From Agarophyton chilense (taxonomy: Eukaryota; Rhodophyta; Florideophyceae; Gracilariales; Gracilariaceae), in assembly GCA_030374765.1 (NCBI GenBank), contig JARGXX010000001.1, forward strand, positions 1,178,001 to 1,242,000: 64,000 nt of DNA. Reading direction: 5' to 3'. Position 1 is the first letter of the stretch. Each line of letters begins with the position of its first letter. The notes beneath the pieces were generated by a model, which searched no databases, was not told the DNA's origin, and saw nothing but the letters and a program-made list of their open reading frames with translations. Shown here piece after piece: positions 7,073-49,644 of this stretch. The translations under genes and the position numbers were made by a program.

Positions 7073-7075
7073 TTT

Positions 7076-13768: not shown

Positions 13769-14764
13769 TTAAGAAGGACCTGTCGGTTTAGTAGCAATGG
13801 AAGCAGGAGGACCCGTGTTATTGACTACCCACGGAGGAAAACCTGCAGAAATGCTAGGAGCCATCGACCTAAGATGTATCGAAGGAGCGGTAGCCCCGCC
13901 ACTGGGGAGAGGAGTCGAAACCAAAAGAAAATGAACGAACGGACCCGCCGGAGCAGGTTGCAAAACCGCAGGGTTCAAGTTTGCACCTAGAAGGGGATCC
14001 GTCAAAGGATCAGATGGCGCAGCAGCAGAGACGCTTGCCAGGTTGGCAACCTGACGGGTGGCCAGTTGGTACATTTCCACCTGGAACTGATTCCAGAACT
14101 CACCAAGTTGGTTCAGCGCCTTCATTTATTGCGCATGGCGCGGCAGGAAACCTTTAAAGAGCGTTAATGCAGCAACCACGGAGATAGGCCCAGCCCTCTG
14201 ACAGTTGGTGACGCAAGACTGGCGAATTCGAGCCAGCAAACCGACCACGGCCGGAGAATCCGTCATATGTTGAGGCGGAGGCCGAGCAATACCCGGCAAC
14301 AGAGGTCGAACCAGACCAGCAACCCGCGAGGAGCTCCGTTGAGTAGGAGTCACACCCATAGAGATAGGCGACTTACGACCTTGAGGTAACGGCTCGGACG
14401 GGAAAGGACCAGCATAACGACCAACTGGTGTCACCACAGTACCGTGATAAGGTTCTGGGCTCGCGGGAGCTCCATAGACAGGAGGCTCTCCGGGATAGTA
14501 TTGGGCGTGGCGAGGCACAATCTCCCAAGTTGCGGGATCGAAGGATTCCCAACCTTGATGGGAATCCCAATGGTAATTCTTGCTCTGCTCGAGATACGAG
14601 TCCAAATCCTTCACGGTATAATCTGTCCCCTTCACGATGTTCTCGTAACCAAATCGGAAAATATCCTGGGCAACCCTCGGAGGTATGAAGAAGATGCGAC
14701 CTACAGGTTGAACACCATCTCGGTATATGTCAGAATCGGAATTGCCCCAGTGAACAGTGGTTTG
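13769..14764 (-). pseudogene. Antisense gene (aORF) of element A, C-terminal third
   Basis: This is the last part of a long gene on the strand opposite gag-pol, ending about 160 bases from the chromodomain end. Two blocks in one frame (14635-14126 and 14125-13769) are separated by a single stop (14126-14128), and the frame runs upstream to 14764. It reads VHWGNSDSDIYRDG, RIFFIPPRVAQDIF, then a Pro-rich tail. It aligns with the B1/B2 aORF region that follows their EWAVRAA motif (WFLPFRLR in B2). At the point where B1 and B2 have a stop (FDR* / FNP*), A reads FDPATWEIV without a stop. The 5' continuation is at 25340, across the DNA transposon. The protein is not recognisable. Confidence 0.7.
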
Positions 14765-14780
14765 GGACAGAATATGGCCG
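14765..14780 (+). repeat. Left terminal inverted repeat of the DNA transposon
   Basis: The 16-base end matches the inverted right end (25324-25339) except at one base (G/A at position 6). It is followed by dispersed GGCC motifs up to about 15000. Confidence 0.75.
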
Positions 14781-15203
14781 ATAATGGGACTTGATTAAAT
14801 CCATATTTTATTTTGCATGTCTAGAAGTGGCCGGCACAGGGCCGCCAAACAAGTGGCATTATCATAAAAAAATATTGATGCGTCGTAAAGTGGCCAAAAG
14901 CAGGCCAGCAGTTGACGGCCGTCCGAGAAATGGACGCAATGTAGCCCAATGGAGATGCCTCCGGCCCTATTTCGGCAATTTATACTTTGAAAATCCATTT
15001 GCGGCAGTCTCGTGCCATTCAACATCAGGAGGCCGCTTTGCTTTGCTGCATCGTAAAACACAAAAAAGAGTCGTGCTCCAAATTTCACGCTGTCATATTT
15101 CAGACATCCACCTCAAAACCGTGGCCATCCGAGCCTTCAATTCCCGCTCTCAGGAATTCGTGGTTAAGCCACGGAGAGTTCTGTTGCATTCGCCTCAAAA
15201 TCC

Positions 15204-18200
15204 ATGGACTTGGCTGAGCCCAAAAACGATTTGCTTTGGAGGTTCATTGGGCGTTCTCTGTATCTCGGTCTGATAACGTTTGGAGTCACGGCTTTCGTCG
15301 CATTCCTGCTTGACTATTGTCGCCGTTACATTATCAATTATGGACCGCGAAATCTTCATCGCTCCCTTCGTCGCTTGCCAAAACTACAAGGCTTTTTCAT
15401 GAAATACCGTGGTGGGAATTTACACTTGTTTTTTTTTCTTGAAGTTATCAGATTCGCCCTTAACTTGCTGGTATGTGTTGTGTACGTACATGGCACATAC
15501 TTGCAGAATGTCAGTACGTACATGAAAGTTGTGTACGGAATGTCTTCGAGGCTACTTGTTATCGATGCTGTACTGCGTTTACTATCAACTGAGTCAGCTT
15601 TCTCATCCGTTTTATCCCTACAAATTCTGGTTGATTCCTTCTCATACCCATCGATGTGGATTGCTGATGGTCCGAATGCATATCTGAACTTAGCTTTCCT
15701 TCGCGCGGTTTCGCTATATCTTTCCTATTTGATCTTGGAAAGACTACTTTTTATTCGAATGATGAGCTCCAGAAGGCTTCTTTTAAAGCTACTTGTTCAG
15801 AATCTAGTGCTGTTTTACACGCTTGCTGGTGCCATCCAGCTTCTCGAAATTCCAGGTGATCTTCTCCCTACAGCTTTTCGCGAAAGGTGGTTCAATTTTG
15901 GATAATGGACGTTTTTGAATTCATGCTACTTCATTATTGTCACTTTGTCGACCGTAGGATATGGCGATTTCTCTCCCTCGACTTTGCAAGGACGCATCTT
16001 CACTTTGTTCATCATTATCAAAGGTATTGTTATATTTGCTTCCATCGTTTCGGAGCTCGTGACGCATGCCCGTCGTCGTCTTGGGAGCGGATGGTTCGTT
16101 AAGAACAAGAACACTCGCCACGTCATTATAACCGGATCTCCAAACCGTACGGACCTCATCCAATTCATTTCAGAGGTTTTTTCAGACCCCCGCGGTTCAA
16201 ACAAGAATGCCAGGATTGTTGTAATCGTAGGCGAAGTACAATGGTCTGACTCTGATTGGTATCAGTATATTGCGAAGAATTACTTCTTGCAGAACAGGGT
16301 GCAGTACATGCATGGTTCTGTTGGGAACTCCTTAGATCTCAGTCGTGCCGGGATTGAGACTGCTGATGCTGTGTTTATTTTGAGCTCGTTTAGGAACGGT
16401 GAAGAACCGTCAATCCAAGACACCGAAACCGTTATGAGCGCCTTGGCGATCAGAAACATTCGGACAGATATTCCCATTTACGCTCAGACTATCCTAGAAA
16501 ATTCTAATCTACAGACATACACTGCTCTCATCACACCATCTACTTTTTCGAAAGAGGAGACATATTTCAGAGGAAAGGAAATGAGTAGAAACGCAGCATA
16601 TACCGGATTATATTTTAAAGCCCTAGAGCTCGAATACGAAACTATTCCAGAGCTACAACGCAAAGGCAGTGTTCTGAGGAGATTTGAAGAACATGTGCAT
16701 AGATACCTCAACACTCAAGAGGATACTAGAAGAAATTATGAAACAGGTCGTGGGAAAGATGATCTTGCTCGTTCACAACTCGTTTGTCTTCAAGAAATTC
16801 AAATGGCGTTGATATCTGGAAATGTAAGAGCGAATGGGGTAGGTACTTTACTGTCACCTTGACGTGCAAACTCCAGAATTCTCAGAAAACGAGCCACCGT
16901 GGCTATCGGAATACCATATGGGCGCATCGTGCGAGCTCGCTTATGCAATTGTTCCGAAAGAGCTCGACGGCGTTGCGATAAAGGATTTAGCAACAGAGCT
17001 GTGTCAACTAGGGCATATCATCGTGGCTATCAGTGATGTCAGTAATCCTGTTCCAAGACTTGTCCTTAACACCGATGCATTGCTTTCCCGTGGTGATTTA
17101 GTGATGGTGTTGACGTATCATGAACTGGGAGCAGTTGCTGCCGTTCTAAACATTGTAGCACTGCGCTATGCAAAGCTACGTCGAGAAAAATTGGTTTCAA
17201 CCACTCATCCGCCTCTGGAGTCAATGGGACAGTCGCAAACGGCGAGAGAGAATGCCCCACCCAATGTTCATGAGCTGGAGGCAAGTCAGATTCTAGAACT
17301 GGGTGAAATATCTCCATCATTCTGTGCTCTTTTACAAAATCGCCGAAACCAGTCAGGGGATGATCTTGACGCGCTCTTTGATGAGGAAGATTCGGAGAGA
17401 ATTGCACAGCAAGCAGAGAGGACAGAATGGCTTCTCACAAAAGCCAAAGCTCATCGCGTCCCAGAAGACTTGAAAGACCACGTCATCATTGCGCCCAAGG
17501 GTGAGGGGGCGTTGGACACACTTACGTTGCTGCTTGCGAACCTGTGGAAAAAAGATGTACGTATGTCAGTCAGAGGAACACACAAGGCAAAGGTTGTCGT
17601 CGTTCATCCCTGCATATCGTCGGAATTTAGCGGCTGGTTGTCTCGCGTTGTTGGACAATCCCTCTTCTTTGTAGAAGGACCTTCTACATCGAGGGCCACA
17701 TGGAGAAAGGCTAGGATAGACCATGCAAAGGCAGTAGTAACCACAGCTGACTACAGGCAAAAAGGAAATGGCAATGACGCTCAAACCTTACTCACTCTTC
17801 TCGCTTTGGATGTCATTACCAAAGATGATCAGAATCTTTTTATTTGTTCAGAGCTTGTAGAAGAACGGTCATTAGAATACTTGCGAGAACCATTGCATCC
17901 ACGTAGAAAGGTTGCAGATCTCGGTGACGAAGTTAGTCAGGGCCCTTTAGCTGCTGAAAATCGCAATACATGTTCCACTGAAGGAGCTTCAAATGCAGCA
18001 TCTGTAGTCAAACCCCAGGCGCCATCACGGGAACGCACTGTCGTCGGCCAAGGTAACGAGATTCGTCAGGAGTCAACACGTCACAACGTGTCAAATGCTC
18101 TCCACGGAAGACTTTCGCAACAACCCTTAGGAAACTTGAGGGGTATCATTCCGGACAGCCCCGCTAATATCGTTCCAGAGTTTCGAGAGTGATCCCGCGG

Positions 18201-19201
18201 CTAAGCCTGGTGCTGTTAGAGCTCGCCGAAGCGTGTTATTTTCAAGAAGCAGATATGAGTCAGGAGAGCTGCTTGTACAATCTGATGCCATCACTTTACT
18301 GGCGCGGGAGTACATTGAACCAGGTTTTATTAATTTGCTCACCAATATTCTTGGTACTAACTCGCAGAGTTTTGGAATGAAGATCCGCCTTATCAGGATT
18401 CCGCCTTCCATGTTTGATTCCCGCAATACAGCTGGAAGAGGTGATCTTGAGCTAGTACGATACGAGAAAATTTTCAACGCCCTCATCAGATTAGGCGTAA
18501 CTCCGCTTGGAATTTACCGTTCTGGTACTGCACCTGCGCTGTTGCCCACCAAATCCCGAAAGAAGAGGGGAGCAGCCGTGTTGCGCTACTTGGGACAGCT
18601 GACAAACGAGTCTTTATCTGGCGAAGAAGGAAATGAAATCGAGGGATCATCTGTCTTCATTCGCGTGAGGCGACTTCTCCGAAGAGTCTTTGGCACTTTC
18701 CGAGAAGTGCTTTCCAGTCATGTTCAAGAACAGGAAGGAAGGAATGAAGTCCATGGACGATTGAATGGTGAGGCTCACAATGATGAAATGGCTGTTGCAT
18801 CCGATGAAGATACGTCAAGCACGATTGATGTGAACGACGCATCCGACGCAGACTTTACAACAGATGCCCAAAATCAATTATCAGGCTTTGCGGGAACTAA
18901 CGAGAAGAAATATACTGCTCCAGCGGACAAAGAAGGCCACGGTGCGACAGGTGCGGCTTCAAGGATACATACAGTCACTTCTGTCCTTGGGCAACTGAAA
19001 CACACGGAGAAAGCGGTGATAGATAATTTGCTACCCTACGTCTATACACATCCCGAGCTTAACACATTATGCGCTAAAACAGATGGCGTCTTCGTCCTTT
19101 GCGATCCATGCTTCGAGAACGAAAGAACGTCGTCCACTATACCCGCACGGCAAGGGCGCCCGGAATTTGGAGGTCACCGCGGCTTATTCTCTTGTTTCTA
19201 A
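15204..19201 (+). pseudogene. Slo/BK-type potassium channel with tandem RCK domains, interrupted
   Basis: Slo channels are membrane K+ channels gated by ligands on two cytosolic RCK domains. The first frame (15204-15902) has the S1-S5 segments, with the Slo-like S3-S4 block LVDSFSYPSMW and LAFLRAVSL. A TAA at 15903-15905 is followed in the same frame by the pore helix and selectivity filter TVGYGD (15951-15968), S6 and RCK1 (RHVIITG, YMHGSVGNSLDLSRA, ADAVFILSS, DIPIYAQTILE). Near 16840-16890 the reading changes frame to 16864-18192, which holds the RCK1 end, a linker and the start of RCK2 (DHVIIAPKGEG). Near 18120-18190 it changes again to 18233-19201 (RCK2 end, acidic Ser-rich tail). The two frame changes could be very short introns, but the stop before the filter would still end translation. 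The gene is cargo of the DNA transposon. Confidence 0.8.
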
Positions 19202-22200
19202 CCTTGTCAACAAAATATCGCCTTCCAGATATGTCAAGTACTCCGACAAGGCGTTGAATACATTCACTTGTCTCAATGGAAACCTCTGAACGCCTTCTAT
19301 CCCTCGTGTACACAAGATCTAGTTGTTCCTCATGCACACACCCATACTGCCACTTGATCTGAAAAAGAGCTAACATGAGCACTCGCTTCCCATCTTGTCT
19401 ATTAATTTCGATGCAGGCCTCGAATATCCGTCGTACCTTACCATAGTACAGATCTCTCGTCTTTCGAAGTGATGTCGTATGGGATACTCCAGAATGAGAA
19501 TCAGCATCGATCTGTGCTTCGTCAACCCTCAAAAACTCTCCCGCGATGCAATGCTTTTGACGCGCTCCACGTGTGGACTTGCATCGTTTCGTGTAGCACT
19601 CCTTGGTTTCAATGGAAAATTGTTGACTACTCTTGAAGATTGTGGCCCACTGGTACTGTTTGAGAGAAGTGATTCTATAGCTTTGGAAGCCATTGGAGAC
19701 GTTCTGCCTCATGAACCTTGATATAGAACTTCTTTTTTCTCCGCATACCTCGCTCTCGATTCCAGTTCCATGACACTCGACGCCTGTACTGGTATAACGT
19801 GTACTTTTCCCTTCGCCTGATGATTCAGAGTCCTGATCCCTTGTTTCGCTCGTGAGCCTCAAAGTTTTCTCTTCGACGACTCGCGGAGCAAGTCCATTGT
19901 TCATAATCCGAAGGGCGAATAGTCTATGGTTCTTATGGAACAAGGGAGAGTATACATTTGTCTTGGAGGTCATTCGCCTTCCCATGTCTCCAAGAAGTCG
20001 CTCGATAAGAAACTGAGATGTCGTTGGAAGAGGACCACACTGTTTCAAAAGGTCTGGAAGGTGCAATACTGCATGAGTTGTAGGTGTGAAGCAGTACGCA
20101 TCTGAAGATTTTCTGTAGAACAAATCGACGAAACTTGCGTACAGCTCCTCCACAACATGCTTTAACTCTTCAACTTCACCATCCACGCACTGATATTGGA
20201 AGCATATTGATATCAGCCTCGACGTCAGCCTACATATAGTTAATATTTTCCCCTCAACTCCTTCACGATGCAGAAATGGAACGAGGTACATTTCTAACTG
20301 ACGTTTGAAGTCCTCGGCCTTATATCTTTCTATGTCACGGAGAGCCAACGGTGGCCTCCCCCATGAAACAGGAATTCCTCCTGAACATCGATCCATGTTA
20401 CTATCTATCTTGTGGAGTGTGTTCCTTGGTATACAGTAGCTCGGAGTCGTTTCCATCTTCTCATGGCGAGCGTGAAATCCGCAGAGAAGCTTCAGCAAAT
20501 GTTTACTCCAGCCCAAGAGTACCAGATGCATCACGTCGTATGGAAAAGAGTACTTGAAGTCCATCGAAAGCTTTCGAAAACAAGAATCGCGTTTGATGCC
20601 GGTTTTTCGTGCAATTTCCTTCATTCCAACAGCAGCATCATCGCCGAGTCGTTTGAGCTTGCCCCACGTGGAAATGATATCGCGTTCGTGGCGAGCCGAG
20701 CCGCATTCGATGTTGATAAAGTCCCCAACTTTGTAGACAATGTTACGCCCTCTCCTCTTTTCGAACACAGCTTTCACAAGGCCAGATGAAATATGAGGAA
20801 CAACGTAAGAGCTGTTACACTCGGGTATGTACGTCTTTTGCTTGAGGCAGAATCTACAAAACACTGTACCGGTGTGTTCAACGTACCCCAGCAGTTTTGA
20901 AGCTGCAGGCCAGTCAGCCGTGAAGAAAAGTACGTGTGCTCGGACAAGTCGGATACGCTTATCATGGCAGACAACCTGGACACCTTTCTGTAGCTGGCGA
21001 AAGACTTTCACAATTTCAGACATGAATGTGTCAAAGTACTGGGATACATGAGAGCCAGGTACAACGGCGAGGATGAGGGTGTTATTTGCTCTCGATGGTT
21101 CCTCTACGCTGAAGGTCAATACTGTGCAAACGAGGGGCCAAGAAGATATTGGTTGCCCCTTTCTGTTCTTTGCGCACTCAAAACCATCTGTGGAGAATGT
21201 GAGAAGCACATGCAGCACATCTGATTCTTCATCCCATTGCTGTATGCAACTGGAGATTTTCTTTGAAACATATTACCATGATGGAAATCTTGGTCCTTGG
21301 CAACATTTATTGATTCCATGCAAGCATCTTTGGCTCGCTTGCATCCTTCAATAAGTTCTTGGAACGAGTCACGAACTCGGCATAGTGCCTTGATTGTAAC
21401 TGTCGGTCTCAAGTACCAGAACTTTGCACTTCCAATTCCTTTGATAGTATTTTCACAGGCAGGACATTTAACTGTGTTTCTCAGCCTGCCGGCGGAGGCA
21501 GTATGACCCTCCATGCACATCTGCACATATGATTCCGTCGCGAGGGAGTTGCGAACAGCGAACGAAAGCATTGTACGGTATGAAACCATGGCGTTGATTG
21601 GGGCAACAGTGAGAAGCTTTTCTAATGTTCTCTGAGATATACCTGACAGTTCAGCAGTATAGAGAAAGGCTCCAAGCCTTCTGAACTCATCAGCGCTTTG
21701 TACACCTGTATTCCTCGTTTCAAAACCAACAATGGCATCTGAGGAAAGGGAAAGTTGGGAAGCCTGTTGAGGGTCAGAATCTTCGGCACTTCTGGACATT
21801 TGGCCATCATCGGATTCATAGAAGCAAGAGCTCTGTCTGTCTATATCGAAAGCATACGCATCCAAAGGACTGATAGCGCCAGGTTGCAACAACGAAAGTT
21901 GCGCATCCTCATTTTTCGCATCCACGGGAAGATTATGGAAACTGTTTTGAGGATTCACGATGGGCACATGAAGGGGTGAATCCTCCTCTCTACCAAGATC
22001 AAATCCCCTCACATCGGAGCTCTCCTCCATTTCGCTCAAATCTTTCTGCGTTTGAAGTGGAGAAATAGATTGCTCATCATTCAGCAATTTCTGCTCGGGC
22101 TCGAGCTCCCATCTGCACCTTCTTTTTCTGCAAGGGGCTTGCTCGGGAAGCCTCTTATATTGTTCGGAGCTTTCTTGAGAGACGGGTGCTGGGGGTTCCC

Positions 22201-22270
22201 ATCGTTTGCCACGCATTTGCCATCTGTCCTTATGCTTTCTAGATTGAAAGAAGGACGTGGACATGTTCAT
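19137..22270 (-). pseudogene. Tnp2/DUF4218-like transposase, one frameshift
   Basis: This is the presumed transposase of the 14765-25339 element. The N-terminal frame (22270-21116) has an acidic Ser-rich region and a zinc-finger-like KCPACENTIKG. The second frame (from about 21240 to 19137) has the Tnp2 signatures: LLTFSTDGFECAKN, ILAVVPGSHVSQYFDTF, ADWPAASKLLGYVEHTG with FCRFCLK, PYDVMHLVLLGWSKHLLKL, and HAVLHLPDLLKQCGPL with QFLIERLLGDMGRR. The two frames join near 21240 (QQWDEESD), offset by one base, so it is a frameshifted copy. The 3' end overlaps the channel gene tail to tail by 65 bases. The C-terminal part beyond DMGRR is Ser/Arg-rich and not conserved as far as I can tell. Confidence 0.75.
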
Positions 22271-22908
22271 TCTGGAGCTGCAGAGAAGGATATTGTGAGA
22301 AGGAGGAACTCAGTATTGAACGATGATGCTAAAACGAGGTAGCCGCGTTATCATGGAGTTCAGAATTTGAATATTGATGGCTAACGCAGATCCGGCGTAT
22401 AATCCTAGCTCCCTCTACCTCTCCGGGCAGGTTCAAGAGTCAAAGTTTATCAAATTTGTGGCCGAATGTAGAAAAGGCATTTTGTGACCAACTTTTTGGC
22501 AAATGGAGAAGGTTCACCCGAAAGCTTGCTGGCGCTTTCGTTTGAAGTCCGCTTGTTTTCTTTCGATGCGACTTCCATATAAGTTTTCCCTCAAACATTT
22601 CTTCGAGCTTCACCTCCCGTGTCTTCCCCTGCCAGGCTCCATTTCATCCCTTCTGTCTCTTTCCCGTCGCTCCGGTCCACATCCAATTCCCCATCTCGTT
22701 CATTTCCGTTCCCGTGCACCGCGTACCGTATTCGTTCTTTCGACTTCCTCGAACGAAAGCGACGGCAGCGTACCAACGTACGGTTAACGCATTGTAAGTA
22801 CTGCCTAGTTCACGTTTACATTGATGAGAGTGCTTCATCTTCTGCTAGCTTTCATGCATATATTTCGTTTGCTCTGCGTTTTCAATGACTTAGGGTTGTT
22901 CATGCATC
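22271..22908. promoter_or_regulatory. Divergent promoter interval inside the DNA transposon
   Basis: The 638 bases separate the start of the transposase (minus) from the accessory ORF (plus). A pyrimidine-rich tract with many TTCC/CCTC runs (about 22590-22760) lies upstream of the accessory ORF. No convincing gene is present. A bidirectional promoter is inferred from gene orientation only. Confidence 0.35.
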
Positions 22909-24275
22909 ATGGGGTCTCGAGTTATTAACCCAGTCACTGCAGATTACAATCAGTCGTCGATGCAGCAGGAAAGCATCATCGACAGCCGGTCGGGGGGTCA
23001 TATAGTTCTCCCAAACACTATCGGCATTCCAACAGCGGCCTATAAACGGAGAATGAAGGAATCAGATAGGCCTGGCGTTCCCACCGGCACCGTTCTTTCA
23101 GCGCGCTTAGTTTTTAACCCTCTGTACCGGGAGCAGATGGGAACTTCGGCTCCATCGAATGAAAACTATCCTGTGTATGCAGAGATGGCAAACGCAGTCA
23201 AGGACCTCATCAGGCAGTTTCTGTATCAGAGGATGTCATTAAGGCGCGGAGAAAGGACATTCACTTCTGTGAAAATCGAGTATGCCACTCAACTGACGCA
23301 TCTCAAGCGGAAGATTGTGGATGCATTTCCAGTTCTCGGAGCGGCTCAGAACTTCTGGCTGGCGACGGAGTTTATCAAGGAATCCATGCAACGCGATAAG
23401 AAGGCTTTGATCGAAGCTTGGAAAAGGCAGACAGGAGACGTTTATTGTCCACTGATCTTGGCGGAATCCAGAACGACTTGAGTGCACATGCACCTGAGCA
23501 GAACGGCCCCAATCCCGTTGTGTCTCCCGTTCTCTCTATGCATGTCCGGTCAGGGGAGCATGTGCAAGGTGGTGCGATGCGAATGATTGGCAGGTCTGAC
23601 GGTGGGAGATGCCGCCCTAGCCAAACTCAACGACGAAACCAGAATCAACGTTCGCGTAAGCGCACTGCAAGTGGCAATGACAGGTCTGCACAAGTTGGAC
23701 CTCTTCCATATGACGATCAAGTACTTCAACGCCACGGCCACTCCGCACTGCATTCAATTAGTAACGCCGGTTCGTCTGCTAGGTGCTTTTCAAGAGACAT
23801 TAGTGGCCATCCTCCGCAACCCGATCAACATAGTATTCACAATCAGAGCGGTGAGCCCTATCGCAACGAGCAGAACAGTAACCAGTTGCAGGCTGCTGTG
23901 ACCGAGAGGGCCTCGAACAAGCGCCCCTTCAACCAAATTTCCACGTTGTCCAACAATTCGGGTGAATTCGATGATGACAAAAAAGACCAACATGATGAGT
24001 ATCGCTCTCAAGCGCCACAAAAACAGCAGCGGCAGCGTAAGACAACACGGAAAGGAGTGAAGGGAAGGGCATGCAGAAAAGGCATCTCCAACTCCAGGAC
24101 CATGCAGAGGCTACATGAAAGCAAAACATCTGAAGATGAGTCTGACTCAACTGTGCTTCACGGGGCAGAGGAAACTTGGGTTGCACGCCACAGAGAAGCA
24201 CGTCAGAGCTCTCGTATTAGAAATTCGAAGGCAGCTGTTTCTCGATTCCGCGCCCCTCGCTCCATGAAGCCGTGA
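22909..24275 (+). pseudogene. Transposon accessory ORF, frameshifted, function unknown
   Basis: Two overlapping frames (22909-23481, 190 codons; 23418-24275, 285 codons) look like one gene with a frame change at about 23420-23480, through a lesion or a missed intron. The first part has a predicted helical region (VYAEMANAVKDLIRQFL; SMQRDKKALIEAWKRQ). The second is Gln/Ser/Arg-rich with strongly basic clusters (QKQQRQRKTTRKGVKGR; SSRIRNSKAA), as in nuclear or DNA-binding proteins. By position it could be a TnpA-like DNA-binding helper. I do not recognise the family. Confidence 0.4.
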
Positions 24276-25323
24276 GAGACTTTGTGATAGTCCTGTCGTG
24301 TTGCTAATGACATGTTTCCTATTGTAAGTACATTCGCCTTCATTGATTTATGCGGGCTCTGCTGGCTAACACCTCTAACTGCTCCAGGTCCCTAACCTTT
24401 CGCAAACAATATCATGTTCAAAATTACTCTATTGCGAAGCATATTCAACATAACGTTTATGGTGCTATCGCCAACCACGGAGTACGTACAGTGAGTTCCT
24501 CCCGTTTGCAACCATGATTAAAACCTCATATGCCTCACCAGACTAACCAACTATCGTTCTTTTGATTTCAATGTGTCAGGACTCCCGATTAACTTTGTGT
24601 TACCATGAAGTTCGTATGTATCACCATAGATTGGGCGAACGGTACGATTTGAAATCTGGATGAGGCGGTTCTTGGTGTACGAAATGGTTGTAGTTGTTCA
24701 TTGCTTGACTTGCATCAAGTTTGAGTTCTAGATGCGATACAGTTTTGATCATACAAAGTAGTTTTTTCGTCTAAGTAAGTCTAAGTGAGGGAAATTCCAT
24801 CTTTGTATGGGAGAGCTTGGAGACTATCATCTTCATAAGAAGTGGGACTGGAGAAGGCCCCTTTCGGTGGATTTTACGAGTAAACTATGTCCAGAACTAG
24901 AACCTAAATGGTGTGAAATATGTGTTGTATTGGAGAGTTAATGGACCTGATAAGGTCACAATTCGGTGTTCTATCTGTCCGAAACTGAAAGAAACAAGCG
25001 TCCATATCCAACAATCATTTGTCTTGATTGTGGAGAAGGGTTCTTATTTCGAACCAGATCGGAACTGAAAATGGACTTGGTTCGCCCAATTTTCCAGCAG
25101 TGTTCCGGCTCAATTTAGTCCTATTACGCCCTTTTTGCGTATGATCTCGGACTCATGAGGTACGCTGACGTATTCTACTTCTCGGCCATAGTTGGTGCAG
25201 TGTTCGTTCTACAATAGTTGGCCATATTTTGGCATACGTTAAAAGGCATATTTCAGGCCATTTTTTGGCCTGTTTTTAGCCGGAAATTTTAAATAAAAAT
25301 AAGGTCTAAGTACGGCCATATTA
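24276..25323. other. Right subterminal region of the DNA transposon, no gene
   Basis: The interval is AT-rich and has no frame worth calling. Copies of GGCCATATT and TTTGGCC accumulate towards the end (25210-25339), mirroring the left subterminal region. Confidence 0.55.
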
Positions 25324-25339
25324 CGGCCATATTTTGTCC
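25324..25339 (-). repeat. Right terminal inverted repeat of the DNA transposon
   Basis: CGGCCATATTTTGTCC is the inverted partner of 14765-14780 with one mismatch. A second, internal copy of the CGGCCATATT core starts at 25313. Confidence 0.75.
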
Positions 25340-26927
25340 ACTCATGCTGCGCACTGGGTTGCGACAATCCCAATCGATACCGTAACGGGCGGCCTTCAAA
25401 ACCAGAATGGCAACGAATACGGTCCACTCCGAAAGGACAATGGACCAAATGAGGTAATACCGCTCTAAGTTCCGGGACATCTGACTCCCGAAGTACGCCA
25501 AGACCGGCGGAGTGGGCATGCTCAGTGATAAAGGAACCTCATAGGACTCTCACCACTCTGGTCGAAGCACGTACCAATCGGGTCTATCCTTCGTAGGTTG
25601 TGAGAAGTACTCGACGTTATGAAACATATGCATACCGCGAGTGTACGAGTTGCGAGTGCGAACGCGATTCTCCGTCGCTGCATCCTCGCCCCACCTACTA
25701 CGGTCAGCCCAATTGATAGTGGTGAAAGGCCGATTCAGGGAAACCAACTCAGGTGAAACTGCAAGGTAAGTCTCCGGAATAGACGGGTACTGGCACACTT
25801 GCACCACCAATCGACGGTATTAATCCAGCTCCGGTTCGATGCGCACATACGGTCAGTCGCTCGGATATATCGGCGAGATGAAATACCTCAAAGGTGTATG
25901 ACGCTGCCGACTCTGGAAACATTCCAGTCGACCCTGACGAGGTTGAGACTCTTGGTCCCGTTTCTTCAAGAGCAAGGGAATGGAGCGAAGGCGCTCGCAG
26001 TCCGAACCAGACAAACCCAAGTAGGGATCCAATTGTGGTCTGGTAAGAGCTGCCGGCAACGACGAATTCCCTACTGCCACAGGCAAATTGTGCTTCAACA
26101 GGTCATTGTTCGTCACCTGGTCGAATGTAATACCAAAATGTCCATACAGACTCGTCGTCCGCTTCGCCGCACCAAACTCTAGATTGTGAGCCCAATTGGT
26201 TTGGGTCGTCGAAGGAAGTCCACCACTGCGTTGGCACGGGTCAGCCGGAGTCCCAGGGGAGAACTCAGTCGCAGGGACAGGCATACTGCGAAACCCAATG
26301 TTGGTAGGCGTTCGCGAAGTCGAGCGAGTTACCCTCTTGGTAATACCACCGCGTCCACGGCCACAAGATGGGCCGCTAACTGACATGGATTGGAAGGCCG
26401 TAGCTCGACCCGACGAACGAGGTGATGAATCGACCTCCACGGCCGCGGTGAACACCAGCAGGTATTCATTCTTTTGAAGTAGAGCCTCCTCGGTCCGTTC
26501 TGAGGAGACGGCCAACAGATCCAACCTTTCCGGTAGTACCGACAATGACCTTTCGGGAACAACAGTGGCCGGCGTGCGGTCGCGAGCGGGTCCAGACCTT
26601 TGAGGTATCGTGGAACGGGACCAATCCGACCTTAAAGGCATAACGGCAGGGGTATCAATCCCCTCGGAATCGCCAACTTCTTCAACCCCAATGGTAACAG
26701 GCATCTCACGTCTCTCGAGCGCTGGTGCTGCTAGTGGGGACGACCCACCCCTTCGAGGTATCGGTGACGAAACCACGATGCGGTGCAAGGTGCACCGACG
26801 TGGTACCGAATGGGTTCGAACGCGTGCGCAGAGGTGGCGCGATCTTGTCATTACGCCGAGGGTAAACCGGAATGCAAAACCGGAAAAAGGTCGCGTAATT
26901 ACCAACGGGGCCGCTCAACACCAATAA
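25340..26927 (-). pseudogene. Antisense gene (aORF) of element A, middle part
   Basis: Three blocks belong together: 26905-25853 (350 codons), 25810-25550 and 25519-25340. The last reads PPVLAYFGS and LIWSIVLSEWTVFVAI, which aligns with B1 PPVVSYLGS and GLWSVVLTEWAVRAA. The first block is Pro/Ser/Arg-rich, then TQTNWAHNLEFG. Frame changes near 25830 and 25540 and a stop after RPEW break it. It is continuous with 49694 (5' side, before B1 inserted) and 14764 (3' side, before the DNA transposon inserted). Confidence 0.65.
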
Positions 26928-26932
26928 GGTCT

Positions 26933-27819: not shown

Positions 27820-28064
27820 TCTTCATATCCCCCTCCTTAGGTGATGAACACGCCGTCGACATGGCGGGGAGGCAACGGTCCAACCGGCATAAGAGCGAGC
27901 CGCGTAACGCGTCCAGCGACCACTCGACTGTCGAAGGCAGAGCTGCACAACCGAACGAAAAACGCACCGACGTGGTAACCACTCCTCGAACTTCGAGCGC
28001 TCTTTCACATCGTACGCCAACTTCCCGCGACCACATCAAGATACCTTGGCGACCAGTACTCCCG

Positions 28065-37002: not shown

Positions 37003-37146
37003 GAGATCAGAATCCGTTACACGTGAGTACCCAAACCAGATCGGCTACTGGGGCTTAGAAACTTCCTCAAAGAGGGTAACTGATATCAACCTCAAATTGT
37101 GAGTCCTCTTTCCGATTAATCGTGAATGAGTGTGCCCGACTCAAAG

Positions 37147-37164
37147 TTCTAAGTCGGGAGACCA
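37147..37164 (-). other. Primer binding site of B1
   Basis: The complement reads TGGTCTCCCGACTTAGAA, identical to those of A and B2, and is separated from the LTR by 3 bases (37165-37167). Confidence 0.85.
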
Positions 37165-37167
37165 GTT

Positions 37168-38011
37168 TGAAGACCAAGGCTTGGAGCGGAGACACCACGA
37201 AGATGTTTGGGATCTTCCTCTCTTCAGAGACACTCCTCAGGCGGGGGAGACGCGTTCCAGCGAAGCACAGAAACAGAGCCACTCTGGAAAGGCACGACGA
37301 AGTCGGGTGTGAGACCGAGGCCGATCCGGCGGGATATACCTAGAGTGTTTAGGTGAGCACGGCACAGTCCGGGGTGTGACCAATCCTAGGCGGAGCGGTA
37401 CCACGGCGATTGTCAGAAAAGGAGCGAGGAAACACTCGTATGAGGTGGACGAGCGGGGTGAGTGGGGCGGCCACTCACGAGAGCCAGAAAGGAGAAGAAG
37501 AGGAAACGGGGGCGAAACCCTATACAGGAGCGAGACTACGACAAGTGTCGGCGATTAAATATGAACCCACGGTGGTGGTAGCACTCTGGTCGACAGAGGG
37601 ATGGATGAACGAACGTGCGACGGGCGCTCACGCAGTATGCGGTGAAGACGCGCCGAAGGCGAAGAGTTCAGAGCCAAGACTCCCTCCTTGAGATCTCCCA
37701 AGAGGGTGTTTACTGGAAAGCAGTGCTCAACCTCCTAAGTAGTGTGGCGCGCGGCCCCTGACAGTTGGCGCGCGCCCGAAAAATAGACACTAAATAGCAA
37801 TAACGTAGCCAAATAAATATTTAAAAAATCCAAAATAATACTAACCATTAAGTAGAATCCGGGCCACATGTGGCACGCCTCGCACTCGTGCCTCGGCATC
37901 CGTGCAGTCCACGTGTTCCACCAGTGCGCACCTCCGGTCCTAACCAGCCGTTGGCAAGCAATAGCGGTATAGCTTGTTATAGACCAAGCTAGTCCTCAAG
38001 CGAGCGAAACC
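37168..38011 (-). repeat. 5' LTR of B1, larger part
   Basis: 844 bases that align with 26933-27780; the remaining 44 bases lie at 49645-49688 on the far side of B2. The B2 target duplication AAACC is at 38007-38011 and 49640-49644. Confidence 0.88.
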
Positions 38012-38934
38012 TGAAGTGCAACCCTCGTGAGGGCCGTTTTCCAGGACTTGGTTGTTTTCCCGCCTCGGGCGATACTTGTGAGATCTATGAGTAATACCGC
38101 TACTAGCGGGCTGGCGTAGCCAGGTGTATACGCGTTGTACGCGAAGTGCATCGGCGGCCGTGCGCCGTGGCCCCGATTCGGGTGTGACTTACCCACGTGT
38201 ACCACGGGTGGCCCAGGACAGGTTGGCACAGCATAGCTGGATATTTCTCTATTTATTTAGCTTTATTACACTAGGTTAGGGAGCTCTTTACAGTATTCTA
38301 CACTATATAGTGCCAGGCCGATCTCTCCCTGACACTCAGTAAACCTCCCCAACCAGGGTTCTAGGCTCTAAGTCTTTTTCCGCTTTCGCGAGTCTTCCAT
38401 ACTCTACGAAGTTGAAGCCGCGTTACTAACGGTAGACTTATCCACCCTGCGTCAACAGGAGTCTCACCGCTGTTAGCGTGTATATCTTTCATACCACTGC
38501 CGTGTTCTCGCCTCAGTATTGGGTTTGCTACATATTTCTTTTGGCTCTCGTGGCCCATGCCCCCGATCGCCTCCACTGGGTGGTCCCCCCCTTTATCGCT
38601 TACCCTCTTTCGTGGTAGCTCCCCCTTTCGCTTTTTGGTTGGTTATTCGTGCCGCTCGCGCGTGTGCCGCGTTCCGGCTTACCGGGTTTACCGCCACTCC
38701 TGTGGTTGCATTACTCGATCTCGAGACTTGCCCACTTCCGTGGAATACAGCTCATACCTGGTCTGCTCCCTTCTAGCATCCCGCACTCTCCCCGCTTGGC
38801 GTGCCGGTGAACCTCGGCCTTACACCCCGACTTAGTCGTGTTCACTCCGGAGAGGCTCCGTCGCCGTGCTACCCTCCTTGGAGGAAGACTCGGACATCTT
38901 CGTGTGTTTCCGCCGCCCTTGGCGTTGCACTACA
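38012..38934 (+). repeat. 5' LTR of B2
   Basis: Starts TGAAGTGCAAC and ends GTTGCACTACA, giving inverted ends with a one-base offset. It is followed by the spacer AAC and the primer binding site. Small frames inside (38519-38835) recur in the 3' LTR by homology and are not genes. Confidence 0.92.
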
Positions 38935-38937
38935 AAC

Positions 38938-38955
38938 TGGTCTCCCGACTTAGAA
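38938..38955 (+). other. Primer binding site of B2
   Basis: TGGTCTCCCGACTTAGAA, 3 bases after the LTR, identical to the sites in A and B1. Confidence 0.88.
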
Positions 38956-39094
38956 GGCTAGGGGAACCTGGTTTGGTTGTTTTTCACATTTCTGTGCTGT
39001 CTTCTCTCGTCGAGATCTGCTTTCCAATTTCTTGGTTTGGACCCACTTGGTGGAAGCTTTTGTTGTCCCATTCTTAGCGGTCAACGCTACAACC

Positions 39095-41223: not shown

Positions 41224-41420
41224 TTTCGGGAGTCTCCCCTTCGGGAGAGGCTTCCCCAACAGTGAGGTTGATGACGCCCGAGGCGTCTCCGCCTCGCTCC
41301 CCGGTCACAATCCTCACGAGGAAACAGGCCGTCTCAGACGTGGGCTCTGAACACTTTGGTGTTCTACGTCGACCGTGAACACGTGTTCTTAACCGCCGGT
41401 TCCCGGATAGAGTCTTAGTA

Positions 41421-44400
41421 ATGGCCAAGCGCAATTACAAGGTGTATGCCGACCTTGGCCTTTTTACCCAGTTTATGGTTCGATTCCTTACTGTTTTGGA
41501 CACAGGTGCTGGTCCGAATTTCATCGTGGAGTCGCTGCTGCCCCCGCCCTTGCGGTCTCAGATCCGCCTTGGCGTGGCGCCCGACGTCGAGGACGCGAAT
41601 AACAACCCGTTGTCAACGGTTGGAACCGTCGCTCTCGTCGTTCGCTTGGGCTCCTTCGTGGTGAAACTCGACTTTATTGTATGCCGGAAATTGGCTGCCC
41701 CCATCATCTTGGGATGTGACTTCTGTGACAGATTCGTTGATGCCATAAGGCCCCGCTTAAAGCGTGTTGAGATGGAAGACGGCTCGTCGGTCCCGATTGT
41801 CTGTCGTCCGCTGCGGCGTGCCTCCAAGAAGCACGTACCGCTCCCTGCCGCGCAGGAACCTCCACCCGCTTCTCGGGAGTCTACCAAGCTCCGCGTGGCT
41901 GCGTCTGTCCGAATCTCGCCAGAGTCCCAAGTATGGGTGCGTGTCACTTCCCGTCAACACGGTTTACGAGCCATTCAGCCTCTCTCATCTCTGTATGATG
42001 GATATCAACTCGCCGTGGCGAATGGAGTCGCGCAGATTGTCTCAGACAAGCCGTTCACCGTGCTCGTTGCCAATCTGGGCTCTACCCCCCAGTCACTGGT
42101 GAAAAACCAAGTTATTGGATCGGTAATGCCTCACCCCACCGCGATGGTCTCCACTAGGCTGACCGCTGCCGAAGTCCTCGGTCTCGTTCACTCTAAAGAG
42201 GGGGAGGAAGCTGCCGTCCAATCACCGAATGATTCGGAATCGCAACCTGCCGAAACAGAAAAGAAGCCCGTTCCGACGAGTTACGACCGGGTAGACCCTG
42301 TGAAAGAACTCGAGGAACTCGACCTCGGTCATGTACCGGAGTCACACCGTGAAAATCTGCGTGAGATGTAACGGGTGTTTACCACAATGTGGGATGGCTC
42401 TCTTGGTGAGATAAATACAACGGAACACCGGATAGATTTATTGCCGAACACCCGACCGGTGGCTCAACACCCTTACAGGGCAGGCCCCAAGGCTCGAGAA
42501 GAGGAACAGTTCCAAGTGGACAAAATGCTCCGAGCTGGAGTGATCGAACCGGCTCAGTCGTCGTGGGCATTTCCAGTGGTACTGGCTCCGAAACCCGATG
42601 GGTCCTGGCGCTTTTGCATCGACTACCGTCGCTTGAATGATGTTACCGTCAAGGACGTGTATCCGATCCCACGAATGGATGATTACATCGACTCTCTCGG
42701 CACTGCTACCGTGTTCACGGCTTTGGACGCCAATTGGGGATATTGGCAGGTTCCCGTTAGGGAGGAGGACCAAGATAAGACTGCGTTTGTCTGTCACTCG
42801 GGACTCTACCGTTTCAAACGGATGCCTTTTGGTCTAACCAATGCTCCCGCTACCTTTCAGCGTGCTATCGACATTTTGTTGGCCCGCTTTAAGTGGCGTA
42901 CTTGCCTCGTCTATTTGGACGATATCATTGTATTCTCAGACAATCTGGATGACCATCTCACGCATGTCAGGGACATAATGACCACGCTACGTAATGCTGG
43001 AATAACCCTCAAACTGAGGAAATGTGAGTTCTTTACCGATACCGTGAAGTATCTCGGGCACATTATCCGTCCGGGACGTGTAATGATCGAGAAAGCTCGA
43101 GTGAGGACCCTTCGCAAGGCGAAAGAACCCGCTACCCAGACGGAACTGCGCTCCTTTCTAGGATTTGTCAACGTCTACCGACGGTTTATCCCTAACTTCG
43201 CTGACATCGCGGCCCCCTTGAACGTGCTTCTGCGGAAAGGTCAACCACCTAAACTGGACCCCTTTACGTCCGCCCAGACGGATGCTTTCAACTCCCTTAG
43301 GGAGGCTGTCACATCAGCACCGATTCTATCGTTACCGAAACCCGGACTACCGTTTTCCGTGGACACGGACTCTAGCGACTACCAGGTAGGCTGTGCGCTC
43401 TTTCAAACTACTCCCGAAGGAGAACGCAAACCCATTGGGTACTGGTCACGCTCGCTCAATGTCCACGAGCGGAACTACTCCGTGTCGGAGAAGAAGTGCG
43501 TCGCAGTTGTGTGGGCCCTCTCTACACTCCGCCCCTACCTCATGGGTGTGCACTTTACCGTTCACACGGATCACTCGTCCCTACGATGGCTCATGACCAT
43601 CTTGGAGCCGTCAGGCCGCTTAATGCGATGGAGACTGCGCCTCGCGGAATATGTCTTTGAAGTGATCTACAAGAAGGGCACTCAGAACGCGCAAGCGGAC
43701 GCGCTCTCCCGTTTACCCACGAATGGGGAAGCTCTAGCCGTCGATGACGAGGATATACCTTGCTTCGTCGTAGACGACGGAACACCGGGGGACCCAGATT
43801 GGTTACACGATAAATGGAACGAAAGCCCGGAATCGGATGATGATATTGACGCATTGCTCGTCTCGGACGATTCAGAGAAACCCCCGCCGGGTAATTTTGT
43901 GCCGATACCCCCGGAGGAGATGGTCATAGAACAGCAGGGTGACCCCTTCTGTACGAAGATTCGCGCCTGGCTTAATGGCGGTGCACAACTCCCTTTCAAG
44001 GTGAACGATCTTGGATACCTCGTCAGGACGGTTCAGTCATCCCCACAAGTCGTGGTGCCGCATACTCTACAGTCTAGAGTTTTGCATCTATCGCACCATG
44101 CGAAACTTGGTGGACACGCCGGTGGACGGAAGCTCTACCTCATTTTGCGAAGGAATTTCTACTGGCCCGCCATGGCGGTGGATTGCTACGCAACGGTGCG
44201 ATTTTGTACCGAATGTGCTAAGAATCGGGTGAAACATCGCAAGTACTCAACGAAGTTGAAACTATTCCCGGCACGGGCTCCTCTCGAGTTTGTCGCCATT
44301 GACATCCTTGGTAAGCTCCTGACCACACGACGTGGACATAAGTTTTTACTCGTTATCACGGATCGTTTCTCAAAACTGGTTCGGACCGTACCTCTACGGA

Positions 44401-46565
44401 AGATATCCGCTTTCACGGTTTCACAAGCATTTGTAACCCATTGGGTATTCGTCTACGGCCCGCCGGTTAATCTTCTATCCGATAACGGAAAACAGTTCGC
44501 ATCGCGATTCTTCGAGGACGTGTGCAGGATTCTTGACATCAAGAACCTGTTCACAACGACCTATCACCCCCAGTGTAATGGGCGAGTGGAGCGGTTTAAC
44601 CGAAAGCTATTAGCGTCTCTCCGTTCTTACGGGACCGACCACCCAAAGACATGGGATTTATATACCGACGCCTTGACGTTCGCGTACAATACGCAGGTAC
44701 ACCGTACTACGGGCTTGACTCCATTCGAACTGGTCTTGTCCCGCCCTCCGCCCGCTGTCGCGTTAGAACCCCAGCCCACGCTGGATTCGGTCCCTTTCGT
44801 GAAGGATTATCGCCACAGGTGGAAAGAGTGGCTTACAAAGCTGATCCCGGTCGCCCGAAGCTCGATGGCTCGTGCCCAAGCCGCTTACAAGCGTGATTTC
44901 GACTCTCGCGTACGCGGTTAGGCCCCGACAATCAAAGCCGGTGACTTCGTCTTCGTCCGTAAGGAGTACTGGAACCCTGGAAAGGAAAAGAAGCACAAGG
45001 TCATTTCGGTGAAAGACGACACCATCGTGGTGGAAATTGTCGACGCTCGTGAGCGGATCTCCCGCGACCGCGTTGTACTCGCCCCGCCACCGACTTTGGA
45101 AGTAACCGAAATGGGTCAACAATCCCTCTCTGAGGATGATGGTGCTCGGGACACAACAATGACTCAGCCCACTGCCGGGGTTTCCAGACCTTCTGCGTTA
45201 CCACACCCTATCCGGGGACTCTCTGACTTGCCGATCTTATCGGACAAAGGCCAGAATGGCCTCTCTTCTCTCACGCCACGGCGCGGTGTCTACCCCCGCC
45301 CGTTGGGCGTTTCAACCACTCCCCATGCCGCTCCGTCTCAGGAGGGGGAGGAGGCTCATAACTCTCGTCAAGAGACGGAAACCGCTTCGTCGCGTCATGA
45401 CAACCGTGCTGCACGGACTCCTGGACACACCAGCAAGAACAACGGTGATCCGGACGTCCCGTCTACCGACGTGCCATCTCCGCATTTGCGCGCTACAACC
45501 GTTGCTGAACCCTCTATGGGAAGCGCCACCGCATCTGCGTCTGATCGCACTCTCCACGGGGACTCTACTCGACATGACGCACCACGTAGTGGAAACCCTC
45601 TCGCCGAAGCGAAACCGAAATCGTCGCAGGATGTTGTTCGCCCTAGCGATATTGGACCGGCTATGCCGTCGAGCGTTGACCCGCAGCCCGTGGGTCACGG
45701 TTCGTCGACACCAGCTACGCTGGAAAACTTAGAGCACGCCCGTCGCGGTACTTTGTCGCCCAAGCGAGCAGACATACCGGCAGCGCCGTTGCACACGCCC
45801 TCACGTGAGGAGGCGGAACGCAGCAAGGCGCGGAGTACTCCCAGCCATCAGCCGGACGTGTCACGTGACCAAACGACACCCGGCTCGAGAGATACGCCAA
45901 TCAACGCCCAAGGCGGCTCACCCGGCAAGGCACGACGCCCCGTGATGAAACCGCCTCCCGCGTCAAGTCCAGCACCGTCGCGACGGATTTCACCCCGACG
46001 ACTCGCGGAACGCGACCGCGAAACCCAGCCTTGGGATGAGTCCGCGCTCCCCCGAAGGGTGGCCTCTGCACGAGAACTCTCGGAAAGTACTCCGACCCAA
46101 AAACTGGGAGAATTGCCCCACGGGAAGGCCTCCGGCCGAAGCCGTCGAACTGACGCTCTTCGTCATGACGCCTTGGCGGAAGCAACCCGCCAAGCGGCCA
46201 AGGCAACCCGAAACCCGGTTCGTTCCCCTACCCAGGGCATGGAAAGGCAACGCCAACCCATGGACTCCTCGGGGGTAGAGCACAGTAGCCCACACGCACC
46301 TGCGGACGTACACCGGTTTGGTCCTGTGACGCGTACACCGCAAGGGCGGGAAGTCTACGAGAAGGAGTTCGTGGTCGACCACATAGTGGAGCACTCATAC
46401 CATCCGGATGGTTATATTCAATACCTCGTCCGTTGGTACGGTTTAGGGCCCGAATGAGATTCGGATGAGCCGATGGAACATCTCCCACGTTCGAAGGTGG
46501 TGTCATTTCACCGCAGAACGCGGACGGGAATCCCGGCATCGGTTTTTAAAGCCCAGGTGGGATAA
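41421..46565 (+). pseudogene. pol: pol of B2: protease, RT, RNase H, integrase, chromodomain
   Basis: All parts are in one frame, separated only by stops. The protease (41421-42368) has an intact DTGAG at 41499-41513. A TAA at 42369-42371 replaces a Leu codon seen in B1. RT (42375 on) has RFCIDYRRLND and YLDD at 42912-42923. RNase H reads DTDSSDYQVG, SEKKCVAVVW (catalytic Glu changed to Lys), HTDHSSLRWL and QADALSRL. Integrase has the zinc region (HHAKLGGH; CTECAKN) and an intact DDE core (VAIDILGKL, LLSDNGKQF, NGRVERFN). A stop at 44919-44921 precedes APTIKAGDFVFVRKEYW. About 10 residues present in B1 (LSPVADGPFR) are missing after KEKKHK. The chromodomain (FVVDHIVEHSYH, LVRWYGLGPE) is cut by a TGA at 46455-46457 where B1 has Trp; the frame then runs to AQVG and TAA at 46563-46565. 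Confidence 0.9.
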
Positions 46566-46744
46566 CACCCACCTCGGTGGAAGAGAAAAGAGAAGTGGGT
46601 TTGCTTGAGAACAGGCTGGTGAAGGAGGGTTTTGGGTTACACAAGTCACTTGGTTTTTATTCGAAGCTATCGATGGAATACCGAGCACTCGGGATACTAC
46701 TCTAAGTCACAAGGGAAAACTCCCCATCGGGATCGCGTGCCCCG

Positions 46745-48448
46745 TCATGGGTTCGGCTCACCGCCCCCGGGTTGGTTACCTCCCTGGAGGCGGGTGATCA
46801 AGGCCTCGCGCATCGCGGCAACATCGCCACTCGCTGCGTTGGTCCCCAGCCCCACCTGTCACAGGAACTGAGAGATCACGGCCGCTTGACCCGCCGGAGC
46901 GGAGCTCGCATCGCCTGGGGCGGACGCCCCACCACTTGGGAGATTCACCGGTGGAACCGGAGGTAGTCCAGCTACCGCGTACTCCGACCCAGCCCCCGCG
47001 GGGTTATCCAAATCCACGTAAGGCGTGGCTGGAGTCCCCGAGTTATAGGGACCTTCCGCTTCGGATCCCTCGACCTCCGCCTCGGCGTACGCTTCCCGGT
47101 CGTCGGGTTCGTTGTCCACCATTGGATCGTCGCCGTCGTAGACGTGGTAATATTCATCCGCGTCCACGAAACCGATCGGATGCCCCTCGGGGATATGGCG
47201 TGGGGCAAACCGGAGTTCTATCGCTTCCTCCGCGGAGATTTCGTGCCCTTCTTAACGGTCAAAGTATACGAAATCACCTCCCAAGGGAGTAGGCCTTCCT
47301 GGTGACAGGTCCTGACCCTGGCTACCCACGGTGCGCCCGCTTTATTCAATCCGAACGGTGGTCCAGTCCAACTGGTCGATGTAATCGAGAAGACCCGCCA
47401 CTTCTTCGGCGTTGGCTACTCCACCAAGTGAGATGCTCAGGTCCAGGCTGCGAATCGCGGACCTCAACCGGAACGGGAGGAACCACAGTCTGTACTGGTC
47501 ATACACCTCCCAGAGGATGAACACCGCCGCGCGGACTGCCCATTCGGTAATCACCACGGACCACAGTCCGGACTCGGGATCCTCGATGAGGTACAAACCG
47601 TAATACGTGATGACTGGTGGCAGCTCGATGTAACAGCCCCGGCAGGCCTCGAGGTTCGACCACCACGGTGGAATGAAGACATAGCGACCCCGTCTTTCGG
47701 CCACGCGAAGGCGTTCGATCTCCACGTTCTGATACGGGACCAAATACCCGAATCGGGATCGTGCTCGACGCTCGAAGCGGATCAGGGCGAGGAAGTTCGC
47801 CCGCGCAAGTCGACGCATGTAGCAGAATTCTGCCCGGATAATCGGTCGCGTCCAGCACATGGCCTCTTGCCGTGCTATCGGGATGCCCCTCTACGACAGT
47901 GTTTCCAAACCTGCCAGGCGGTCGACGTAACCAATCTCACCTTGAGTGCGGTAAAGCCGAATGTCGGTGCCGAGACCATCGGGGATGGGATATTCGAAAG
48001 GAGCCCGGCGAAGCCGTTGATGGCCAAGAAGGACGAAGGCCGCATGAGCGGAAGCCGAGGTTTCACTACCCCGGCGCGCCACAGCGTGGACCGGAACCGC
48101 TACGCGGCGTCGCCAATCCAACAAAGTTGTCGCCACGGCCGGAATTTCACCCGGAAGCATCCCGTTTCCATCGGTGTACATCGCTATGAGCGCTTCGTTT
48201 AACACCGCAATCGGGTGGAACCACGGCGCAAGCCGGAGAACGGACGCATGATGCCCAGGATGGCGCCCGACAAGCATGTCGTATGGCGGCCACCCTCTCG
48301 GGGGGAACATTCCGTACGGAGCAGCAGCCGCGTTCGCGATAGGAATCTGCGGCGCAGCCGATGACGCGCTTTGCGGAAGCGGAGCGGACCGGAAGCCGGA
48401 GAAGTACCCCGCAGGGAGACAGTTGGGTTGATTGTTTTGGTTGCTCAT
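46745..48448 (-). pseudogene. Antisense gene (aORF) of B2
   Basis: One minus-strand frame runs from ATG at 48448 (MSNQNNQPN) to TGA at 46745-46747, broken by four stops at 47891, 47342, 47252 and 46859. The blocks match B1: GYFSGFRSAPLP, WPPYDMLVG, APWFHPIAV, YRTQGEIGY, WTRPIIRAEF, FGYLVPYQN, CRGCYIELPPV, LWSVVITEWAVRAAV, QYRLWFLPFRLR, GHPIGFVDADEYYHVY, AAVISQFL. The rest is acidic. About 567 codons. It ends 179 bases from the end of the chromodomain, tail to tail. No family is recognised. Three of the four stops are private to B2, so the frame was open until recently; the one at 47252-47254 is shared with B1. Confidence 0.78.
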
Positions 48449-49639: not shown

Positions 49640-49644
49640 AAACC

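Follow-up and report, generated by a model that had tools for sequence, protein, structure and literature searches.

A conserved antisense gene between pol and the 3' LTR of Ty3/gypsy elements in the red alga Agarophyton chilense

Angiosperm gypsy elements and retroviruses of the HTLV type are known to have antisense accessory genes between pol and the 3' long terminal repeat (LTR); what these genes do in retrotransposons is still to be established (PMC7264820, PMC11963269). Such frames, termed aORF-3R when they lie between pol and the 3' LTR and opposite to gag-pol, are exemplified by maize Grande gene23, rice RIRE2 and PvRetro13, which are described as antisense and without clear similarity to other proteins (PMC7264820). 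In Grande the antisense protein localizes to the nucleus, and an upstream promoter drives its gene; the same source offers precedent for nuclear localization and antisense promoters of such open reading frames (ORFs) in general (PMC7264820). In a survey of angiosperm elements, antisense ORFs of the Retand lineage carry a Transposase_28 domain (PF04195), and within that survey Retand is a non-chromovirus lineage confined to flowering plants (PMC11963269). Among retroviruses, HTLV-1 expresses the antisense gene HBZ from a promoter in its 3' LTR (PMC7264820, PMC11963269). Here we describe a gene at the corresponding site in Ty3/gypsy elements of the red alga Agarophyton chilense, based on a window of 64,000 nucleotides (G000:C1:1178001-1242000) within a 79.8-Mb genome of 135 contigs. 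Three elements are nested in the window, B1 (-) and B2 (+) lying inside A (+). In B1, B2 and A-type copies the gene is found between pol and the 3' LTR and opposite to gag-pol, and it is conserved as a protein by the evidence of selection, A-B homology and relatives in other genomes. It belongs to the known kind of additional antisense ORFs between pol and the 3' LTR.

The likeness to the described systems is partial. With Grande gene23, RIRE2 and PvRetro13 the algal gene has in common its antisense position and the lack of clear protein similarity, a resemblance by description; the hosts differ, and the algal gene is known from sequence alone. Unlike Retand, the algal elements have a chromodomain-like tail. 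PF04195 has no match in five antisense proteins and five of their relatives, and a genome-wide search yields one sub-threshold match (E 0.05, C115:1611170-1611286), so by that marker the gene is not of the Retand type. The layout of the B elements suggests a promoter in the 3' LTR, as in HTLV-1 HBZ. HBZ is a short basic leucine zipper (bZIP) factor, whereas the algal protein is much longer and a Pfam search finds no bZIP domain in it. An earlier note on this DNA had placed the gene in chromodomain elements. All three elements have pol domains and a C-terminal tail resembling a chromodomain, but the PF00385 scores of 24.2 bits (B1), 17.8 (B2) and 14.0 (A) are all below the Pfam cut-off of 25.1. 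For Ectocarpus, chromodomain gypsy lineages have been reported outside the chromoviruses (PMC12477816). A red-algal antisense ORF is not named in the titles or abstract beginnings that were searched, a search outside which most subscription papers fall.

The B antisense gene is under purifying selection on the antisense frame. Six open B copies from four subfamilies were compared, and in all 13 between-subfamily pairs the ratio of nonsynonymous to synonymous substitution rates (dN/dS) lies between 0.16 and 0.28, with dS saturated (1.5-3.1), and third codon positions are the most variable. Measured instead by proportions of differing sites (pN/pS), the ratio in the gene's frame is 0.46-0.52 in B pairs. 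The five other frames contain 8-45 stops per pair. One reverse frame is also low in pN/pS (0.57-0.67), yet it holds 31-45 stops, and its low value is expected because its third positions coincide with those of the gene. A stop-free frame is by itself no evidence, since the copies were picked for open frames. Within families, dN/dS amounts to 0.53-0.65 (10 A pairs) and 0.54-0.76 (four B pairs), values taken as a mix of constraint and decay after insertion. The earlier note had proposed to test for a dN/dS below 1 on this frame, and had regarded the gene as an artefact should conservation be no greater than expected from the DNA. Conservation instead follows the antisense reading frame, and such frame-specific conservation implies that the protein matters.

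By profile comparison, the A and B antisense genes are homologous: their profiles align over 220 columns (hhalign E 1.2e-11), and in a separate run the pair scored 90.4 against a maximum of 23.0 in 20 column shuffles. This homology persists although the pol genes of A and B are only 44% identical and their LTRs have no match at E 1e-10, in keeping with the earlier suggestion that the gene was kept over element divergence. We infer that the element from which A and B descend already had it.

Relatives also exist in other red algae. About 8000 candidates were scored in each protein search. A B query finds the Gracilariopsis chorda protein BWQ96_03215 (P0002) and P0001, and an A query finds the Agarophyton chilense protein P0003. 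Searching with a profile built from 11 sequences gives 10 proteins within an E limit of 10, namely P0001, P0002, P0004 (Gracilaria domingensis), P0005 and P0006 (G. chorda), P0007 and P0010 (A. chilense), P0008, P0009 and, weakly, P0011; P0003 is not returned by this search although it is part of the query alignment. The relatives share 35-60% identity, and those named from G. chorda, G. domingensis and A. chilense, known as proteins alone, have database entries that call them hypothetical or unnamed. Genomic copies are matched at 91-92% by two A. chilense proteins and at 73-76% by P0003. The divergent proteins P0008 and P0011 differ in character. P0008 matches B strongly (E 1e-46) and scores 22.6 against A, no better than shuffles. 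P0011 is sub-significant in the profile search (E 0.15), but its scores of 49.5 and 55.6 against the B and A profiles exceed the maxima of 30 shuffles each (22.8 and 23.5) and of the reversed sequence (21.3 and 22.2), for which reason it is kept as a distant relative; it aligns to the A and B profiles in the same order. By eye, this protein of 1072 amino acids has a coiled-coil-looking stretch and a basic tail. Viral contigs, prokaryote genomes and plasmids yielded no relatives. The earlier note's other ground for calling the gene an artefact, the lack of an open frame in any other red-algal element, fails as well, given the relatives encoded by other red algae and seen as protein sequences. 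That the antisense gene is real and not an artefact is virtually certain.

The family is abundant in the genome. Matches number at least 150 for the B1 core, at least 150 for the B2 core (the two lists overlap), at least 150 for the A C-terminal part and 117 for the A N-terminal part. The B1 core is 86-99% identical to the other matches listed, 81 other close genomic rows are 89-95% identical to the B2 core, and for the B subfamilies identity to the latter is about 89-95, 65-68 and 62-64%. The B2 integrase census covered the top 70 of 150 listed matches, all with at least 90% identity, together with the 8 that follow, leaving aside 72 whose antisense partners are incompletely listed, and 89 of 150 listed rows were used for the B antisense positions. 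The gene is found in most of these copies: in 67 of the 70 close B2-type integrase copies the antisense core follows downstream in opposite orientation, at a distance that for 63 of the 67 falls in a single 100-base bin (about 2.8 kb), while one has it on the same strand and two are without a core among the matches listed. In a second B subfamily the core is downstream and opposite in 7 of 8 integrase copies. The frame is open over at least 600 codons in 41 of 82 close B2-type copies, and open B genes elsewhere in the genome span 624-681 codons from stop to stop. Stops within the core, counted by eye, occur in a similar fraction of antisense (20/82) and integrase (18/70) rows. For A, the first 60 of 150 listed integrase matches were set against the best 150 of 471 antisense candidates. 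The antisense part is downstream on the opposite strand in 22 of the 60 among the matches listed, 16 of these at distances within a single 100-base bin near 1.2 kb; where a partner is listed, orientation is opposite in 22 of 23 copies and the same in one. Several matches with identical scores, at G000:C22:1511036, 1518178 and 1528395 and on C13, C109 and C110, suggest recent segmental duplication or assembly repeats.

In the window itself, the gene is present in all three elements, as the earlier note had claimed, but no copy is intact. The B1 copy (27861-29722, +) opens with an ATG at 27861; its frame changes between 28568 and 28592 and is interrupted by stops at 29015-29017 and 29246-29248. 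The B2 copy (46757-48682, -) stays in one frame, which opens with an ATG at 48682 and reaches about 46757, but it contains five in-frame stops (48622-48620, 47893-47891, 47344-47342, 47254-47252 and 46861-46859). These ATGs lie upstream of the starts first assigned, 28065 in B1 and 48448 in B2. Both genes sit between the chromodomain-like tail and the 3' LTR, opposite to gag-pol, and the protein similarity noticed between them is borne out by 44-53% identity in tblastn (E 2e-54 and 1e-108 for two B1 pieces; 7e-52 and 3e-71 in the reverse direction).

The A copy is split. Its N-terminal and core part (25356-26851, -) has three stops, at 25855-25853, 25822-25820 and 25552-25550, and its C-terminal part (13769-14745, -) has one, at 14128-14126. 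Between them, at 14746-25355, lies an EnSpm/CACTA-like DNA transposon. The split is deduced because L059, an uninterrupted A copy elsewhere in the genome, aligns to the window in pieces that omit 14746-25355, a segment holding a Transposase_21 domain at 19137-21218 (-, Pfam); the same alignment sets the edges of the insertion and the C-terminal part of the gene. The ends of the insertion, at 14746 and 25355, resemble each other over 21 bases (E 0.003). The part of A homologous to B is the block LIWSIVLSEWTV at 25672-25397 (-, E 4e-7), and not the stretch at 13769-14794 that had first been thought alignable, where comparison with B gives no significant similarity (best E 0.24). Nor does a length of about 550 codons describe the gene in A: five open A copies have frames of 839-876 codons from stop to stop, and in L059 the gene is a single frame of 842 codons (821 from the ATG) on the strand opposite to pol. 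On its other strand the insertion carries ORFs at 15204-19201, including a potassium-channel RCK domain (PF22614, E 4e-6), which may possibly represent a captured channel gene.

The antisense protein appears to constitute a new protein family, without a match to the described families searched. Pfam at permissive E gives no match for five antisense proteins and five relatives, and a sequence search of the PDB returns weak matches only (best E 0.093), consistent with the earlier failure to recognize a family. The protein was divided into parts by motifs chosen for this analysis, using 10 B-type proteins that include several close copies. The core comprises 311-320 residues. It is preceded, in the nine proteins that have one, by a Ser/Pro-rich N-terminal part of net charge +3 to +17 and followed by a C-terminal part of net charge -17 to -24.

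The position of the start codon bears on expression. Only 88 nucleotides (nt) in B1 and 35 nt in B2 separate the first in-frame ATG from the 3' LTR; if this ATG is used, B transcription should start within the 3' LTR. By analogy with the retroviral case, the B antisense gene is probably transcribed from a promoter inside that LTR. In the A copy L059 about 0.7 kb separate the LTR from the ATG. A TATA-like motif occurs at -714 in the B copy L014.

From the protein architecture together with the plant and retroviral precedents, a nuclear regulatory role may be proposed. The antisense protein would be an accessory protein encoded by the element and acting as a nuclear regulator, an account that could as readily prove wrong as right; that the gene is preserved because its protein helps the element is probable. 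Transcription would begin at an antisense promoter, probably in the 3' LTR for B and in either the LTR or the spacer of about 0.7 kb for A, giving a messenger RNA complementary to the 3' part of the genomic RNA. The protein would then act in trans in the nucleus and regulate the element's own transcription or chromatin state, as is known for HTLV HBZ and has been proposed for Grande gene23. The conserved core would do the binding, flanked by flexible arms, of which in B the N-terminal one is basic and the C-terminal one acidic.

Several observations weigh against this account or the evidence for it. Saturation of dS between subfamilies (1.5-3.1) and the choice of copies with open frames limit the selection test, and within families dN/dS is only 0.53-0.76. 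A second methionine, about 200-235 nt further in, is aligned by eye in several relatives, and if it is the true start the argument for an LTR promoter becomes weaker. TATA-like motifs are absent within 700 nt upstream in both B copies of the window and within 1351 nt upstream in L059. The AlphaFold models of the antisense proteins are unusable (mean predicted local distance difference test scores of 35.1 and 34.8), Pfam finds no known DNA-binding or nuclear domain in them, and 9 of 11 relatives, fragments among them, lack a crude nuclear localization signal (NLS) pattern. A-type proteins are without the acidic tail. In addition, 37 of the 60 A integrase copies have no antisense partner among the matches listed; because these comprise the best 150 of 471 candidates, copies that lack the gene, carry a divergent one or are merely unlisted are not separable.

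Other functions may be considered for the same protein. It could be an anti-silencing factor that binds element DNA or chromatin and lifts host repression, rather than tuning the LTR in the manner of HBZ. Conservation and high copy number would fit such a factor, and VANC of the VANDAL elements is an accessory protein that acts on the chromatin of its own element. In algae, transposon proteins with a DNA-methyltransferase domain may, according to one account, modify their own element (PMC12477816). However, Pfam finds no DNA-binding or chromatin domain in the protein, and the prediction for an anti-silencing factor overlaps that of the nuclear regulator to the point where sequence cannot separate the two; we regard it as unlikely. 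A role in nuclear entry of the pre-integration complex or in the choice of integration sites is rather less probable. Nuclear entry has been discussed for antisense ORFs (PMC7264820), and the basic N-terminus in B could serve as an import signal, but the scarcity of the NLS pattern among the relatives speaks against it, and the integrase already has a chromodomain-like tail. The earlier note had also mentioned a particle or transport factor, in effect a structural or envelope-like protein serving the particle or cell-to-cell transport. The gene does occupy the env position between pol and the 3' LTR; however, env-like ORFs are described as sense ORFs (PMC11963269, PMC7264820), this gene is antisense, and none of 11 relatives has a clear transmembrane segment (strongest 19-residue hydrophobic mean 1.56). 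An envelope-like ORF, for which sense orientation and a clear transmembrane segment are both missing here, is thus disfavoured, and a structural role has found no support and is very improbable.

Two further accounts deny the protein any importance. Antisense transcription might matter only as RNA, through double-stranded RNA or silencing, with an incidental reading frame. The transcript would indeed overlap the 3' end of the genomic RNA, and such roles are among those discussed (PMC7264820), but frame-specific conservation over nearly 600 codons and relatives at 35-60% identity leave this account hardly any room. That the frames are open by chance, as the broken state of all three window copies might suggest, is refuted by the open B2-type copies and the relatives in other genera and has a negligible chance of being correct.

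The remaining features of the window complete the nested arrangement. Element A has its 5' LTR at 6440-7072 (+), 91.0% identical to the 3' LTR at 51225-51833 (+), which the B1 and B2 insertions separate from the A antisense gene. Its pol, 44% identical to that of B2, lies at 10367-12910 (+, Pfam) and its chromodomain-like tail at 12887-13609 (+), which shares 32-36% with the B tails over short stretches. In B1, LTR alignment places the 5' LTR at 37175-38008 (-) and the 3' LTR at 26940-27772 (-), 95.4% identical; the broken pol (reverse transcriptase, RNase H and integrase) was located at 31264-33787 (-) by tblastn with B2 pol, and the chromodomain-like C-terminal tail is at 29938-30489 (-, PF00385 E 3.2e-5). 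B2 has LTRs at 38012-38936 (+, 5') and 48718-49641 (+, 3'), 96.6% identical, a pol with the same three domains at 42375-44921 (+, Pfam) and a tail with a chromodomain-like end at 44922-46517 (+, PF00385 E 0.0032). The 3' LTRs of B1 and B2 are the probable sites of the antisense promoters. Behind the 5' LTR all three elements have the stretch TGGTCTCCCGACTTAGAA (7050-7120 in A, 37130-37185 in B1, 38920-38990 in B2), which resembles a primer-binding site and may be one common to A, B1 and B2. A further A-type LTR at 813-1423, 85-88% identical to the two LTRs of A, is either solo or part of an element reaching outside the window, and about 0.9 kb at 50119-51032, within the A remnant, are missing from L059. 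Probable host genes follow at 53978-62938, including a sodium/calcium exchanger (53978-55630), a HAD phosphatase (59052-60110, -) and a sulfotransferase-like gene (61856-62938).

Taken together, these observations allow a broader but tentative proposal, which we think somewhat more apt to fail than to hold as a whole: that algal gypsy elements bearing a chromodomain possess an ancient family of antisense regulatory proteins, without relation to Transposase_28, which originated independently of the plant and retroviral cases, is expressed from the 3' LTR and reaches beyond the Gracilariaceae. The last point is suggested by the relatedness of the divergent proteins P0008 and P0011. As the family is abundant, with open copies, divergent subfamilies and relatives in other genera, it is open to comparative study, and the named relatives, whose records call them hypothetical or unnamed, are candidates to be re-annotated as genes of transposons. 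If the proposal is true, an antisense accessory gene has arisen at this site in retroelements on no fewer than three occasions. That red-algal elements have yet another protein family in this position, one without the Retand domain, would suggest that the need for an antisense factor is convergent.

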